62,382 bases of DNA from Pseudomonadota bacterium (GTDB taxonomy: Bacteria; Pseudomonadota; Gammaproteobacteria; Competibacterales; Competibacteraceae), in assembly GCA_030917925.1 (NCBI GenBank), contig JAUPTV010000129.1:1-62382 (forward strand). The letters are read 5' to 3'. Under the pieces are notes generated by a model. The model saw only the letters and a list, made by a program, of their open reading frames with translations. It was not told where the DNA came from and searched no databases. The translations under genes were made by a program, and so were the position numbers. The stretch's first letter is position 1. Each line of letters opens with the position of its first letter. This document shows positions 29,062 through 34,725 of this stretch, piece by piece.

Positions 29062-30672
29062 TCAGGCCTCATAGGCGATGATCTGATTCCCGCCGGCGTC
29101 CTTGGCCAATTGCAGGGCCTGTCCGGCGGCTTCCAGCAACCGCTCGATGGCCTCGTCATCCGCTCCCCCGATCTCGGGATAAGTAGCCAGGCCCGCCGAT
29201 ACTGTCACGCACAGGCTACGCCCCCCGGTTACGGCGGGTTCCCAGTGGCGAATCAGCGTCAATAACCGCTCAACCAGGCGGCGGGCGGCGGACGTACCAC
29301 TGGTCGGCAATACCAGGGCAAATTCATCGTTGCCATATCGGGCGACCAGATCTTGCCGTTGAATGTTGCCGCCCAGCAACCGCCCCAGCGCAATCAATAC
29401 CTGATCGCCCACACTGTGGCCACAGGCTTCATTAATTTTCCCGCAGCCATCGACATCCAGTAACACCACACTGAGCGGTTGGTTCTGTTCCCTGGCGGTC
29501 GCCAACTCCTGCCGCAATCGTTCATGTAGACGCGGGCGGTTAAATAAGCCGGTCAAAGCGTCGAAGGCGTACTGACTAGTCGCCGATTCAGTAACTACTT
29601 CGCGATGCAAGCGTCCGGTGTGGGTGCTGGCCACCGTCGGGGTGGCGGCCAGATGATGTGGTAATCCGGCCAATGATTCCCGCTCGCCAGCCGGAAGTTT
29701 GCCACTGGTACGCTCCGGCCAGCGCTGAATTGAACGAATATCCAGCACTTCCCGGGCCTGATCGAGAATCCCGGCAATTTCAGCGGTATCCAGTGACTTG
29801 ATCTGGAACAGCGCCGCGATTTCAGGGAACTTCGCGCCTACCGCTTCCAGAATTTCCAGGTAGTGATCGGTTTCCAGCTTAAACCAGCTCCGGGCCAGGT
29901 CCGCGACTTCCTGGGAATTTTGCCAATAATTCGGGCGGACCCAGATGTCAGCGATGCGCACCGCCAGCGCTACACACTGGACCAGCGCCCGGTAGGTGTC
30001 CCTGGTTTCCACGCGGTCCGGCTCCAGGCTACCGGCGGTCGCCTGGCATAAATAGTCGGGCAGTCGCCAGTGGCGCATCAACCAGGTTCCCACCGCGGCG
30101 TGATCATCCCCCAGACGTTCCCGCTCCAGTTCGGCCAGTCGCCCGCAATTCAAAACGGGCGCTCCACCTTCCGGGTGTTCAGTCGCCTCAGTGAGTAAAA
30201 CGCTATAGGGTTCCGGCATCATGATGGAGAGTGCCAGAATCCCGACCCCGTGCAGCAACCCGGCCAAGAACAGCTCCTCCAGATTCTTCATCGACAGCCG
30301 TTCGCCGAGGATGCGGCAGGCGGTTGCCGCCAGCAGCGAGCGACGCCAGAACTGTTCGGTATTGAGCACCGCTCCGGTATCGCGTCCGGTCGCCACCAGG
30401 GAAAAACCGAGCGCCAGCGCCAGCGTGCCTTGCAGACCAAGCAGGCTGAGCACCTGCCGCAGGTTGGTCACCTTACGGCGCATCCCGTACAGGGGCGAGT
30501 TGGCGGCCCGGAACAGTTTGGTCACCAGGGCCGGATCCATCGAGATCACCCGGACGACCTCATTCATATCCACTTCCGGATCATTGGCCAGTTCAACCAT
30601 TTTGAGAGCCACCGCCGGCAGGCTTGGCAGGTTGCCGCAGAAACGCAGGCGTTGCTCCAGTTCATCATGCAT
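29062..30672 (-). CDS. HDOD-GGDEF signalling protein with degenerate GNDEF site
   Basis: A 536-residue cytosolic protein. Residues about 13-210 form an HDOD domain (NLPSLPAVALKMVELANDP). The C-terminal ~165 residues are a diguanylate cyclase domain (ALTGLFNRPRLHERL). The active-site motif reads YGNDEF instead of GGDEF, and the RxxD inhibitory site before it is not intact (QRQD). It may therefore be inactive or bind nucleotide without catalysis. ATG 30672 (MHDELEQ) is taken; an in-frame TTG at 30696 is possible. Its upstream region is occupied by an IS200/IS605-like remnant. Confidence 0.88.
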   Translation of the reverse strand: MHDELEQRLRFCGNLPSLPAVALKMVELANDPEVDMNEVVRVISMDPALVTKLFRAANSPLYGMRRKVTNLRQVLSLLGLQGTLALALGFSLVATGRDTGAVLNTEQFWRRSLLAATACRILGERLSMKNLEELFLAGLLHGVGILALSIMMPEPYSVLLTEATEHPEGGAPVLNCGRLAELERERLGDDHAAVGTWLMRHWRLPDYLCQATAGSLEPDRVETRDTYRALVQCVALAVRIADIWVRPNYWQNSQEVADLARSWFKLETDHYLEILEAVGAKFPEIAALFQIKSLDTAEIAGILDQAREVLDIRSIQRWPERTSGKLPAGERESLAGLPHHLAATPTVASTHTGRLHREVVTESATSQYAFDALTGLFNRPRLHERLRQELATAREQNQPLSVVLLDVDGCGKINEACGHSVGDQVLIALGRLLGGNIQRQDLVARYGNDEFALVLPTSGTSAARRLVERLLTLIRHWEPAVTGGRSLCVTVSAGLATYPEIGGADDEAIERLLEAAGQALQLAKDAGGNQIIAYEA

Positions 30673-30753
30673 GGTGTTATGACTACCCAGTGCCAATGCG
30701 AAAAATATAAGCAGGATTATATCAAAAAGGCGTTGCTGGCTATCAGGGACTTA

Positions 30754-31020
30754 TTGACATCCCCTCCGCTCTAAAGGACGGAGATTCCTCTGTAGAGGGT
30801 ATGATGCCCCATACCGAGAACACTGAATGTTCTCTGATCTCCCCCATAGAGCAAGTCCTATGGGTGGCACAGCCGACCGGCAACAGGTAGCCGAAACAAA
30901 AGCTTTTTAACACGATCAAGGTTTTACCTGCTCATCTTTTGAGCAGAACCACATACCTTAAATTGCCAAAGAACGGACTACCGTCGGTGGCGTAATCACG
31001 GTGGCCAACTAGTATAGTAT
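30754..31020 (-). mobile_element. Transposase-less IS200/IS605-like element with omega-RNA-like hairpin chain
   Basis: This gene-free stretch holds consecutive stem-loops: CTCCG/CGGAG with inner pairs (30764-30783), CCTC/GAGG (30787-30798), GGTATG/CATACC (30798-30815), GAGAACA/TGTTCTC (30816-30834), CCCATAG/CTATGGG (30843-30864) and CTGCTC/GAGCAG (30928-30946). On the minus strand the first one reads CTCCGTCCTTTAGAGCGGAG and is followed by GGGATGTCAA, the form of the right end and omega-RNA 3' terminus of tnpB elements. No tnpA or tnpB frame exists here, so it would be a deleted or miniature copy. The other boundary, placed at the CTATACTATACTAG stretch near 31020, is a guess. The rest of 30673-31190 shows only the FIST promoter. 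Confidence 0.55.
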
Positions 31021-31119
31021 AGCAAAAAACAGGCGAACTTCATTTGCCGCGATCTACATTACCGCCTTGGAGGACGAGGTGTTTCGCGCAAAATCCTGAT
31101 AATTTGTAATTGTATAAAT

Positions 31120-31146
31120 TTGTCATCTGCCCTTGTCATGTATAAT
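31120..31146 (+). promoter_or_regulatory. Predicted sigma70 promoter of the FIST gene
   Basis: TTGTCA (31120-31125), 15-bp spacer, TATAAT (31141-31146). The -10 is perfect; the spacer is short. About 45 bp before the FIST start. Confidence 0.45.
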
Positions 31147-31190
31147 CTTCAACCCGGTTTCTCAGAGCAATCCAATACGGAGTGAGTCGC

Positions 31191-32426
31191 ATGGAATCGA
31201 ATCCTCATGGTGTGGTCCTGGGCCAGGCCCGTCATACCGACGCTTTCCGCGCCGCCGAGCAAGCGGCGCTCCAGGCTCGTCATCAATGGCCAGCGGGTGA
31301 ATCGCCGGGCTGGGTGCTGGCCTTCGTTGGTGGACAGCACGACCCCACAAGGGTGCTGCGCGGTTTCCATACCGTACTGGGCGAGCTGCCGATTGTCGGG
31401 GGGTGCGGGGTGGGCGTGATTACGGTGAGCGCCGCCACCCTGACCGGCTACGAATGCGGTCTACTGTTGTTTCCGGCGACGTTGAACCCTGCAGGCATCG
31501 CCGTTGTGGATGGCCTGGAGCATGATGAGACTGCCGCTGGCCGTCGCCTGGGTCAGGCCTTGCGCGACATCGCCTCGCCCAATGCCACCGTACTGCTGTT
31601 CTATGACTCGGTGCATAGCAGTCCACCGCCCGTGTTGCATGTGGGTAGTCAGCTCATGGATGGCTTGTACGAAGGTCTCGGCGAACTCCACCCAACGATC
31701 ATCGGCGCTGGGACACTGGCGGATATGGAACTTTCGACCAGTTATATCTTTGATGGTCAGCAATCGCGGAAACACGCCGCCGTGGCGGTCGTGCTGCCCC
31801 CGGAACTGACCAGTCATGTCACCATCATGCACGGCTGTTATCCCGCCAGTGATTTTCTGGACATCACCCGCATCGACGGCGCCCGGGTTCTGGAATTGAA
31901 TGGCCGACCCGCGCTGACTGTGGCTGCCGAGCGGCTGGGCATCCCTCGCGAACAGTTGGCAACGTTGCGCCCGCCGCTATTTTCGCTGACGCTGGGGGAA
32001 AAGTACGGTGATCCCTTTGCGCCGTTTGATGACGGTCAGTATGTCAACCGACTGGTGATTGCCGCCGACCCTGATCACGACGCGCTCATCCTGTTTGAAG
32101 CCGACTTTCATATTGGCACCCGCGTTCAGCTCATGGCCATCGATCCACAGCGCATGATCGAATCAGCCCGAGGCCAAACGCAAGCGCTACTTGATGGTCT
32201 TGCTGGTCAACCGCTGGTATTCGGCCTGTATATCGACTGCGCCGGGCGCTCCGTCGCGTTCTGTGGTCTGGAAGCCGACGAAACGACGCCGGTGCGGGAA
32301 CAATTGGGTGCGTGTTGTCCTTTTCTGGGTTTCTATTCCGGCGTCGAAATAGCGCCACTGCTGGGGCGGGCGCGACCGTTGGATTGGACCGGGGTATTGG
32401 CGCTGTTTACGCGAACCGTTGCCTGA
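31191..32426 (+). CDS. FIST-domain sensor protein
   Basis: A 411-residue soluble protein with FIST N (about 30-225) and FIST C (about 225-390) regions, recognised by ELPIVGGCGVGVITVSAATL, LFYDSVHSSPPPVLHVG and IDCAGRSVAFCGL. FIST domains are proposed small-ligand (possibly amino acid) sensors and commonly pair with signalling proteins. GGAG (31179-31182) fixes ATG 31191. The end lies 4 bp before the next gene's ATG, a GGDEF-EAL protein, so the two are probably a sensor-output pair. Confidence 0.87.
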   Translation: MESNPHGVVLGQARHTDAFRAAEQAALQARHQWPAGESPGWVLAFVGGQHDPTRVLRGFHTVLGELPIVGGCGVGVITVSAATLTGYECGLLLFPATLNPAGIAVVDGLEHDETAAGRRLGQALRDIASPNATVLLFYDSVHSSPPPVLHVGSQLMDGLYEGLGELHPTIIGAGTLADMELSTSYIFDGQQSRKHAAVAVVLPPELTSHVTIMHGCYPASDFLDITRIDGARVLELNGRPALTVAAERLGIPREQLATLRPPLFSLTLGEKYGDPFAPFDDGQYVNRLVIAADPDHDALILFEADFHIGTRVQLMAIDPQRMIESARGQTQALLDGLAGQPLVFGLYIDCAGRSVAFCGLEADETTPVREQLGACCPFLGFYSGVEIAPLLGRARPLDWTGVLALFTRTVA

Positions 32427-32430
32427 ACGC

Positions 32431-34725
32431 ATGATGTCAGCCTCGCCAGATCAACAAGCGCTGAATTATTACCGCCAACAGTACGATGAAATCGGCGGTC
32501 GGCTCCTGCGCGTGCAACAGGAATTGACCCTGGCGTGCCGCGATGCCCGCCGCAGCCGCACCATCGCCCTGATTATTCAACGTCTTTACGAATCAGCGCA
32601 TCAGGCGGCCCCCAGTGAACCCATGGGTGAAATGTTGATCGGGCTGCTGATGGAATCGCTGCGCGTGGACTGCGCCGCACTGCTGGATTGGTCGGAGGAA
32701 GGACACCAATGTCAGATGAAATATGGTCTGGGTCTGGCGGCCGACTTCACCTTGCCACTCACCAAAGCGCCGCCGTTGTATGCCGCCAGTCTGCACCCCG
32801 AAACCCTGCCGGTCGCCGCCCGTGCGGCGCTGTATGCCGAAGGACTCTGCAACTGGTTGTGGCTCGCCGCGCCGACCGTCCACCTGGCCCTGTTGCTGGG
32901 TAATCGCCAATTACACAAGCTGGACAGCGATCTGGTTTTTGAGGAGGCCGACCAGGTTATTGCTACTGCAGTCTTCAAGGTCTACGTGGGGCTGTTGGAG
33001 CAGCAACGGGTCACTCAAGCCCTGCGCGTCGCAGAAACCAATTACCGCACCTTGTTTGAAAGCGCCCATGAAGCCTTTGCCGTATTGGACGCCAACACCG
33101 GGGTCGTGCTGGATGCCAACCCGCGTACTGCCGATCTGCTGAATTGTTCACTGGCCGAATTGCGTGGTCGGCTATCCCTCGAATGGCTGGCGGATGGCGC
33201 TATCCCCTGGAAACGCTACTGGCGGAGGGCGCTGGCGGGGCATCCACAGCAGTTTGAATGCCCGATCCGCACGGCGACTAATCTAGCCTGCTGGGTTGAA
33301 ATCCATCTCAACCGGATCAGTATCGACCGTCCGCTACTACTGGCAGTGCTGCGCGATGTCACCGAACGCCGGCAAAGCGAGGAACAACTGCGTTATCACG
33401 CCTTCCACGACGCGCTGACCCAGTTGCCCAACCGTGCCCTGATTCTTGAGCGTCTGGCGCAGGCCATCCAGCGGCGGCAGCGCGATCCCGGTTATCTGTT
33501 CGCCCTGCTGTTTCTGGATTTGAATCGCTTCAGTGTCATCAACGATAGTCTCGGCCATAGCCTGGGCGACCTGTTGCTGATCGCAATTGGCCAACGGTTG
33601 TGCGCCTATCTACGTCCAGAAGACAGCATCGCCCGGTTGGGCGGCGACGAATTTCTGATTCTACTGATGGACTTGAAGCACCCCGATGACGCCGCCTGCT
33701 GCGCTGAGCGCATGGAACGGGCGCTGGTGATTCCGTTTGCCATTAACCAACACGATATTTACACCAGCGCCAGTATCGGAATTGTGTTGGCCGATGATCG
33801 CTACCATGAGCCAGAAGCCTTGTTACGCGATGCGGATATCGCTATGTACGCGGCGAAAAAACGCGATGCGCCTTATCACCGGTACACGCTGTTCAAGCCG
33901 GCCATGCATGACCAGGCCTTGCATATCATGGAACTGGAGCGCGACTTGCGGCGAGCGGTGGACCGGCGTGAATTTCTGATTCACTACCAGCCGGTTGTGC
34001 ATTTGGCCAGTGGCCGACTCAAGGGCTTCGAGGCGCTGGTGCGCTGGCGGCATCCTGAACATGGGCTGATCGTGCCGAATGACTTTATCCCCATCGCGGA
34101 AGAAACCTTGCTCATCCTGCCCATCGGTCATCTGGTGCTGGAGGAGGCGTGTCGACAGGTGGCGGTTTGGGCTAACCAGTATTCACCGCCGCCGACGGTC
34201 AATGTCAATCTGTCCGGCCGTCAGTTTACTTCCACCAACCTGGCTGGCGAGATCGACCAACTGGTTCGTCAACATGACTGCGATCCAGCGTTACTTAATC
34301 TGGAAATTACTGAAAGCGCCATCATGAGCGATGTCGAAGCGGCGCAAGCCACGCTACAGCGTCTGCACAGTCAGGGCTTCCAGCTCAGCATGGATGATTT
34401 CGGGACCGGCTATTCCTCGCTGAGTTATTTACATCAGTTTCCGTTTGATGTGTTGAAAATCGACCGTTCTTTTATTCAGGCGCTGGGTCAGGACTTGAGC
34501 AGAAGCAAAATCGTTCATACGATCATCGCCTTGGCGCGGACCCTGGGCAAAACAGTGGTTGCCGAAGGCGTGGAAACCCGGGAACAGGCGGAATATCTGG
34601 CGGTGCTGGGCTGTGATTTTGGTCAGGGCTACTACTTCTCCCGACCGGTTGATGCTGAAACGGCGGAAGCTTTACTCAAAGACCCGCCCTGGTTGCGCCC
34701 GGTGAAGTGGGGAAACGAGTCCTGA
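32431..34725 (+). CDS. PAS-GGDEF-EAL cyclic-di-GMP enzyme
   Basis: A 764-residue cytosolic protein. The first ~190 residues look like a GAF-type sensor, then PAS (about 200-310, [17 protein letters not shown]), GGDEF (about 325-485) with intact [11 protein letters not shown], and EAL (about 505-760) with [27 protein letters not shown] and KIDRSFI. Both catalytic signatures are complete, so cyclase and phosphodiesterase activity are possible. Translationally coupled to the FIST gene upstream; FIST is the likely input. Confidence 0.92.

Follow-up and report, generated by a model that had tools for sequence, protein, structure and literature searches.

A 345-bp IS200/IS605-type element without tnpA or tnpB that likely carries a TnpB omega-RNA gene in a Competibacteraceae genome

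Results

The window, meaning the whole stretch of 62,382 nucleotides analysed here, is contig C94 of a 4.2-Mb Competibacteraceae assembly (genome G000). It contains an HDOD-GGDEF gene on the minus strand (29062-30696, with a TTG start at 30696) and a FIST gene on the plus strand (31182-32426). Between these genes, a preliminary description had reported a chain of hairpins at 30754-31020, without any transposase gene and ending in a sequence typical of IS200/IS605 right ends. The hairpin series is present on the minus strand, neither tnpA nor tnpB lies between the two genes, and the minus strand reads GGAGGGGATGTCAA, stopping at 30754, in keeping with such a right end. The proposed limits do not hold, however, as the left end lies further upstream, at 31098, after TTAT. 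The element is surrounded by a cyclic-di-GMP signalling neighbourhood of HDOD-GGDEF, FIST and PAS-GGDEF-EAL genes (29062-34725).

The extent of the element is given by its copies and by autonomous relatives. Searching the same genome with the element yields eight matches, including the window itself. Near-full copies are located on C171 (88%) and C177 (83%), and a further copy on C152 is cut by the contig edge; these three are the other tnpB-less copies of the genome. Short right-end matches at C180, C69, C141 and C222 adjoin tnpB genes or tnpB fragments. The full-length tnpB relative with the same ends, which the preliminary description had proposed to look for, is found in the same genome: C180 and C69 carry divergent tnpA/tnpB with matching ends on both sides, their tnpB genes being intact open frames of 349 codons and their tnpA of the Y1 kind. 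Together with G029:C69, they are the autonomous elements matched at both ends, and such tnpA/tnpB elements match the left end and the right end of the window element separately. Copies in this genome and in relatives show end-to-end homology in unrelated flanks. Given these matching ends and near-full copies in unrelated flanks, the whole element is assigned to 30754-31098 on the minus strand (345 bp, left end 31098, right end 30754), and it is almost certainly a non-autonomous IS200/IS605-type element.

In a family-wide search with 30750-31110, 15 of 39 genomes give matches, several of them nearly full-length and in unrelated flanks. Relatives of the element also occur in other Competibacteraceae genera and in another family (represented by genome G154), and extending the search to the order brought in just one genome from outside the family, which gave no match. 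Among plasmid sequences, 162 records match and none covers 80% of the query; the 20 listed match over the 36-40 bp right-end hairpin alone. Two pattern matches in viral contigs have no recognisable element around them and were taken as chance. Several side observations concern the tnpB-less copies and the more distant relatives. Six almost identical tnpB-less elements in G006 (contigs C12, C20, C21, C33, C35 and C57) have a 169-nt RNA part and a right end as in the window, and have apparently expanded recently. A near-identical tnpB-less pair lies about 1.5 kb apart on G009:C67 (30782-30983 and 32437-32642), and the copy at G035:C501 (3658-3938) keeps both ends but has lost its 5' RNA domain through an internal deletion. 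More distant TnpB genes or fragments lie at contig edges in G000 (C47, C278, C290, C141, C222, C38 and C57), which suggests that the assembly was broken by repeats.

The TTAT at 31099-31102 (minus strand), just before the left end, occupies the position of a target or transposon-adjacent motif. Of the 10 family copies with a left end, 9 have TTAY at this position and one (g29c34) has CTAC. The first bases of the element (CAGGATTTTGCGCGAAA, 31082-31098, minus strand) are common to the window and C180 and directly follow TTAT in both. Next comes the left-end hairpin region (31057-31081, minus strand), which the copy alignment shows to be weakened in the window copy and preceded by GAAAC, not GAAAG; as DNA, the left hairpin folds at -6.1 kcal/mol in the window copy versus -11.5 kcal/mol in C180. 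The left end of the window copy thus looks partly decayed, and with its AAAC left guide and weaker left hairpin this copy may no longer move. The right end (30754-30789, minus strand) consists of GAAT, a terminal hairpin and GATGTCAA; it is of the GAAT-hairpin-TGTCAA type and is common to the right ends that flank tnpB. The AAAG before the left hairpin, the GAAT before the right one and the terminal TCAA are reminiscent of what we take to be the cleavage and guide sequences of IS608. No direct or inverted repeats were detected within 30650-31150. Just inside the left end, a terminator-like hairpin GCGGCAAATGAAGTTCGCC with a T run after it (31024-31050, minus strand) is kept in copies, and a candidate extended -10 element, TGCTATACT (31016-31024, minus strand), is similar in most of them. 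The promoter and terminator scan flagged neither, so both assignments are offered only tentatively; its one promoter-like site lies outside the RNA, a count no higher than chance.

An omega-RNA-like structured RNA of 259 nt is predicted at 30754-31012 on the minus strand from covariation across nine copies. In a single-sequence fold, the minus strand of 30740-31030 reaches -97.7 kcal/mol relative to a shuffled mean of -84.0 (z -2.38, with 4 of 200 shuffles as good), which is moderately better than chance and weak alone; covariation across the nine copies is the stronger evidence. The copy alignment comprises 14 copies, of which seven form alignment A1 and nine form alignment A2. Excluded from A1 were two copies cut by contig ends (own152 and g31c51), three with a missing 5' part or deletions (g13c295, g35c501 and g35c444), one in which the end pattern was missed (g31c13) and one nearly identical to g31c38 (g31c36). 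For A2, RNAalifold gives a consensus fold of 78 pairs in 14 helices, rather than the six hairpins first described. Paired cells make up 95.1% of 700, a value reached by none of 500 shuffles, and slid controls are 40-46% paired. Changes on both sides are seen in 19 pairs versus a shuffled mean of 10.6 (1/500 as high), cells with double changes number 45 versus 15.4 (0/500), the covariation score is 0.259 versus 0.141 (0/500), and there are 50 further pair types versus 44.9 (10/500). The window copy retains 74 of the 78 consensus pairs, and the conserved secondary structure stops at the right-end boundary. The predicted closing helix pairs TTGGCA (30964-30969, minus strand) with TGTCAA (30754-30759); it is invariant in all nine copies and hence without covariation support inside the family.

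IS605 transposition requires the element ends. The double changes are concentrated in helices 5, 8 and 10, which lie within the element and away from its ends, and thereby indicate a role for the RNA. This location bears directly on the explanation that the element is an ordinary PATE or MITE, in which nothing but the ends would count and the hairpins between them would be relics, or structures of single-stranded DNA with no function as RNA. IS605 derivatives that lack a transposase and have palindromes near their ends are well documented (the PATEs described in the available text of PMC3119063), and several family copies are decayed or lack the left end. Double compensatory changes in internal helices and a 5' domain that is strongly conserved across genera and into another family argue against that explanation, which is considered unlikely.

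Rfam coverage of omega-RNAs is partial, and an Rfam match does not strictly define a TnpB omega-RNA. The comparison with known RNA models that the preliminary description had recommended returned no Rfam family at its gathering score; in the search up to E 5, the best sub-threshold hit was the HgcC RNA (RF00062), which likewise has a terminal hairpin and a GUCA end and which scores 19.3 bits, far under its gathering score of 50.

Relationship to the RNA borne by tnpB genes was assessed with R1, a covariance model of the 222-position core built from A1, so that the seven A1 copies match it by construction. In the family search, all 13 matches of at least 60 bits lack a TnpB match in the fetched flanks. 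Matches adjoining tnpB reach 47.1 bits at most; those at tnpB 3' ends score 38-41 bits and share a stem, and the model aligns across the ORF end in C180, C69 and two G029 elements. The shared stem, GAGAATG...CATTCTC, encloses a TnpB-coding loop of 54 nt in the tnpB-borne RNA versus 3 nt in the tnpB-less RNA, and the next hairpin and the right end are alike in both. Retention of the stem while the coding loop shrinks from 54 to 3 nt is what a lost coding constraint predicts. The 3' half of the element RNA has an alignable tnpB-encoded counterpart; its 5' part remains unaligned in the tnpB-borne RNAs of the same clade.

The 5' domain includes a module, GGTATGTGGTT-hairpin-GTAAAACC (30920-30957, minus strand), which was delimited by pattern search and by its context next to a TnpB remnant. 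The pattern GGTATGNGGTT-hairpin-GTAAAAYC occurs in 2 of 369 genomes of the class, at 17 places in G154 and 3 in G000, with none in the other 367; the reversed pattern gives single matches in three genomes. On G154:C87 (locus L173), the module in the form GGTATGCGGTT-hairpin-GTAAAACC lies directly 3' of a broken TnpB end (HDRDTNA). Of the ten G154 module places listed, L173 has this remnant and the other nine have no TnpB match around them. Elements of type 1 in G154 share the left-end design and the 5' domain of the window element. Loci L165, L167, L169 and L171-L177 reveal at least two element types among the 17 exact GGTATGNGGTT-module places, and several copies of type 2 end in GGACTCCAA.

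At the start of the RNA core, a boxA-like sequence is found, CGCTCTTTGGCAATTTA in family copies and TGCTCTTTAACAAG in G154. In the window, the site reads CGTTCTTTGGCAATTTA (30959-30975, minus strand), overlaps the predicted closing helix, and is identical at 13 of 17 bases to the E. coli rrnB leader (TGCTCTTTAACAATTTATCAG). The corresponding identity is 14 in own171 and g31c38 and 15 in G154 L152, and the G154 site equals rrnB at all of its first 12 bases. Taken alone, the 17-base match of the window copy is significant (21 of 5000 shuffles as good) and its 12-base match of 8/12 is not (3161 of 5000). The 16S gene is missing from seven of the eight assemblies searched for a leader boxA and is present only as fragments in G031. 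The 16S-23S spacer of G031 has a candidate boxA, TGTTCTTTGAAAATC, with GTTCTTTG in common with the window copy. The boxA-like pattern, itself derived from the same alignments, is present in 19 of 20 chosen tnpB-less loci versus 0 of 17 tnpB-adjacent loci, a count in which the tnpB-less loci come from two boxA-bearing types only, window included, and which leaves out the tnpB-less kinds G006, G009, G001, G029:C55, G035, G013:C295 and G154 type 2. The sole tnpB-less locus without it, L028, carries a variant with an extra T. The exact pattern is absent from the examined sequences of the tnpB-less kinds G006, G009, G001, G029:C55 and G154 type 2. In the available text of PMC7862264, boxA is proposed to shield the untranslated transcript of CRISPR arrays from Rho; by the same reasoning, boxA may help the element transcript, an untranslated RNA that would need such protection. 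Overall, the sequence comparisons lean slightly towards boxA being used by the element RNA.

These observations also allow a different reading of the RNA, as a structured, boxA-antiterminated non-coding RNA of unrelated function that hitch-hikes between IS605 ends. Such an origin would fit a boxA-like 5' start without counterpart in the 17 tnpB-adjacent loci and a 5' part unaligned in the tnpB-borne RNAs of the clade, but it is at odds with the homology of the 3' half to tnpB-encoded RNA and with the module directly 3' of the TnpB remnant in G154, and is regarded as improbable. Homology of the element RNA to the TnpB omega-RNA is very likely.

The partner TnpB (P0001, on C180) falls in the guided TnpB subfamily. 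When it is aligned with ISDra2 TnpB, using what we take to be the catalytic residues of the latter, the first and last RuvC Asp are kept and a Gly is found at the RuvC-II Glu. The TnpB at L058 702-1730 (G000:C180) reads VVGDV at RuvC-II, and GDV likewise appears in the G029 copies. TnpBs with a relocated Glu exist, and EVSE (in REVSE), near the zinc ribbon of the partner TnpB, provides a candidate, which makes activity of this protein plausible. A TnpB of at least 75% identity is encoded in 9 of 39 genomes; among the 6 genomes with tnpB-less matches of at least 60 bits, 5 have one (hypergeometric p 0.0012, kinship ignored), and adding G009, at 59.3 bits, gives 5 of 7 (p 0.0037, kinship ignored). 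Use of the element RNA by TnpB in trans is judged probable.

Directly 3' of the right end lie the 16 bases TAAGTCCCTGATAGCC of host flank (30738-30753, minus strand), which would serve as the guide. This is the position expected by analogy with TnpB omega-RNA, as the preliminary description had suggested, and its distance to the HDOD gene was also given correctly, 30753 being 57 bp from the TTG start at 30696. Among the fetched loci, the presumed guide is found only at its own locus when up to two mismatches are allowed. None of the thirteen loci with HDOD orthologues in relatives has the element in its fetched flanks, which marks the insertion as lineage-specific. A clean empty site was not found: the HDOD side is present in element-free relatives, and the intergenic part is too diverged to align.

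The same insertion site raises the question of whether the element is a domesticated cis-regulator of the HDOD-GGDEF gene, acting as an attenuator or as a guide for a TldR-like dead TnpB. The element is on the HDOD strand, 57 bp upstream of where that gene starts, and the canonical RuvC-II Glu is missing from the partner TnpB. Nevertheless, no copy accompanies the 13 HDOD-orthologue loci of the family in the fetched flanks, the element occupies unrelated places elsewhere, and the other two catalytic Asp positions of TnpB are kept, which together make this role very improbable.

Discussion

The data agree at once with both ideas of the preliminary description, that of a miniature element and that of a retained guide-like RNA. 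The explanation considered likely is a 345-bp PATE/MITE-like IS200/IS605 element in which a self-contained gene for a TnpB omega-RNA takes the place of tnpA and tnpB. Matching ends, a multi-copy family, a compensated RNA fold and partial homology to tnpB-encoded RNA are direct observations. From these we infer expression of the element RNA, its binding by TnpB and its use of a guide. In the proposed mechanism, TnpA from autonomous copies would move the element as single-stranded DNA at TTAY. The element would be transcribed towards its right end, with the aid of the boxA-type antitermination site, an aid proposed because no translation protects the transcript. The transcript would run on into the flank, which would become the guide, and TnpB made in trans would load the element RNA and cut those copies of the site in which the element is absent, an activity proposed to favour retention of the element.

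The element resembles several known systems and differs from each of them. Standalone, trans-acting omega-RNAs of IscB were reportedly described by Altae-Tran in 2021. These are likewise guide-RNA loci apart from the nuclease gene, and the guide of IscB omega-RNA is at the 5' end. In the present case, by contrast, the nuclease would be TnpB, and transposon ends delimit the RNA locus. Stringer is said to have described boxA-antiterminated CRISPR arrays in 2020. In such arrays, as far as the available text of PMC7862264 goes, boxA precedes long untranslated guide-RNA transcripts, whereas in the window the boxA-like site precedes a single, transposon-borne, guide-like RNA. As with the omega-RNA or reRNA of TnpB (ISDra2 and others; available text of PMC8612924), the RNA lies at an IS605 right end, stops at the boundary and is followed by a flank that is the presumed guide; in contrast to it, the window RNA does not overlap tnpB, has lost the coding loop, has its own 5' domain and is known from sequence alone. 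The PATEs of Haloquadratum are similarly transposase-free, related to IS605 and equipped with near-terminal palindromes, and cause no target duplication; some of them are fused ends left after deletion of the core (according to the available text of PMC3119063). Unlike these fused-end PATEs, the window element has as its interior a covarying RNA of about 259 nt and a boxA-like site.

PATEs and omega-RNAs are thus known kinds, and it is their combination with compaction and boxA that is new. The literature search, which covered few subscription papers, returned no description of an IS605 element that lacks tnpB and bears a structured omega-RNA, and none of boxA together with TnpB, including in the available text of PMC5725501, PMC7862264, PMC9956272, PMC11870625 and PMC3119063. 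A broader and more tentative proposal, held with somewhat less than even confidence, is that the element belongs to a class of mobile, protein-free guide-RNA genes, in which an omega-RNA freed from coding has been compacted and has acquired a transcription start of its own, along with a boxA for Nus factors that would let the untranslated transcript withstand Rho. Members of this class would use the TnpA and TnpB of others, would take a new guide with each insertion, and would have formed expanded sets in two lineages, namely the Competibacteraceae and the family to which G154 belongs.

Were TnpB to act on such RNAs in trans, a single nuclease gene would maintain many protein-free elements, each with its own guide, and the guide set would resemble a spacer array scattered by transposition. 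The two roles of the omega-RNA, as guide and as mRNA end, would become separable, and the family would show the fate of an omega-RNA once the ORF constraint is lifted, suggesting compact natural scaffolds. Transposon-borne guide RNAs would then join the untranslated RNAs that use boxA antitermination.
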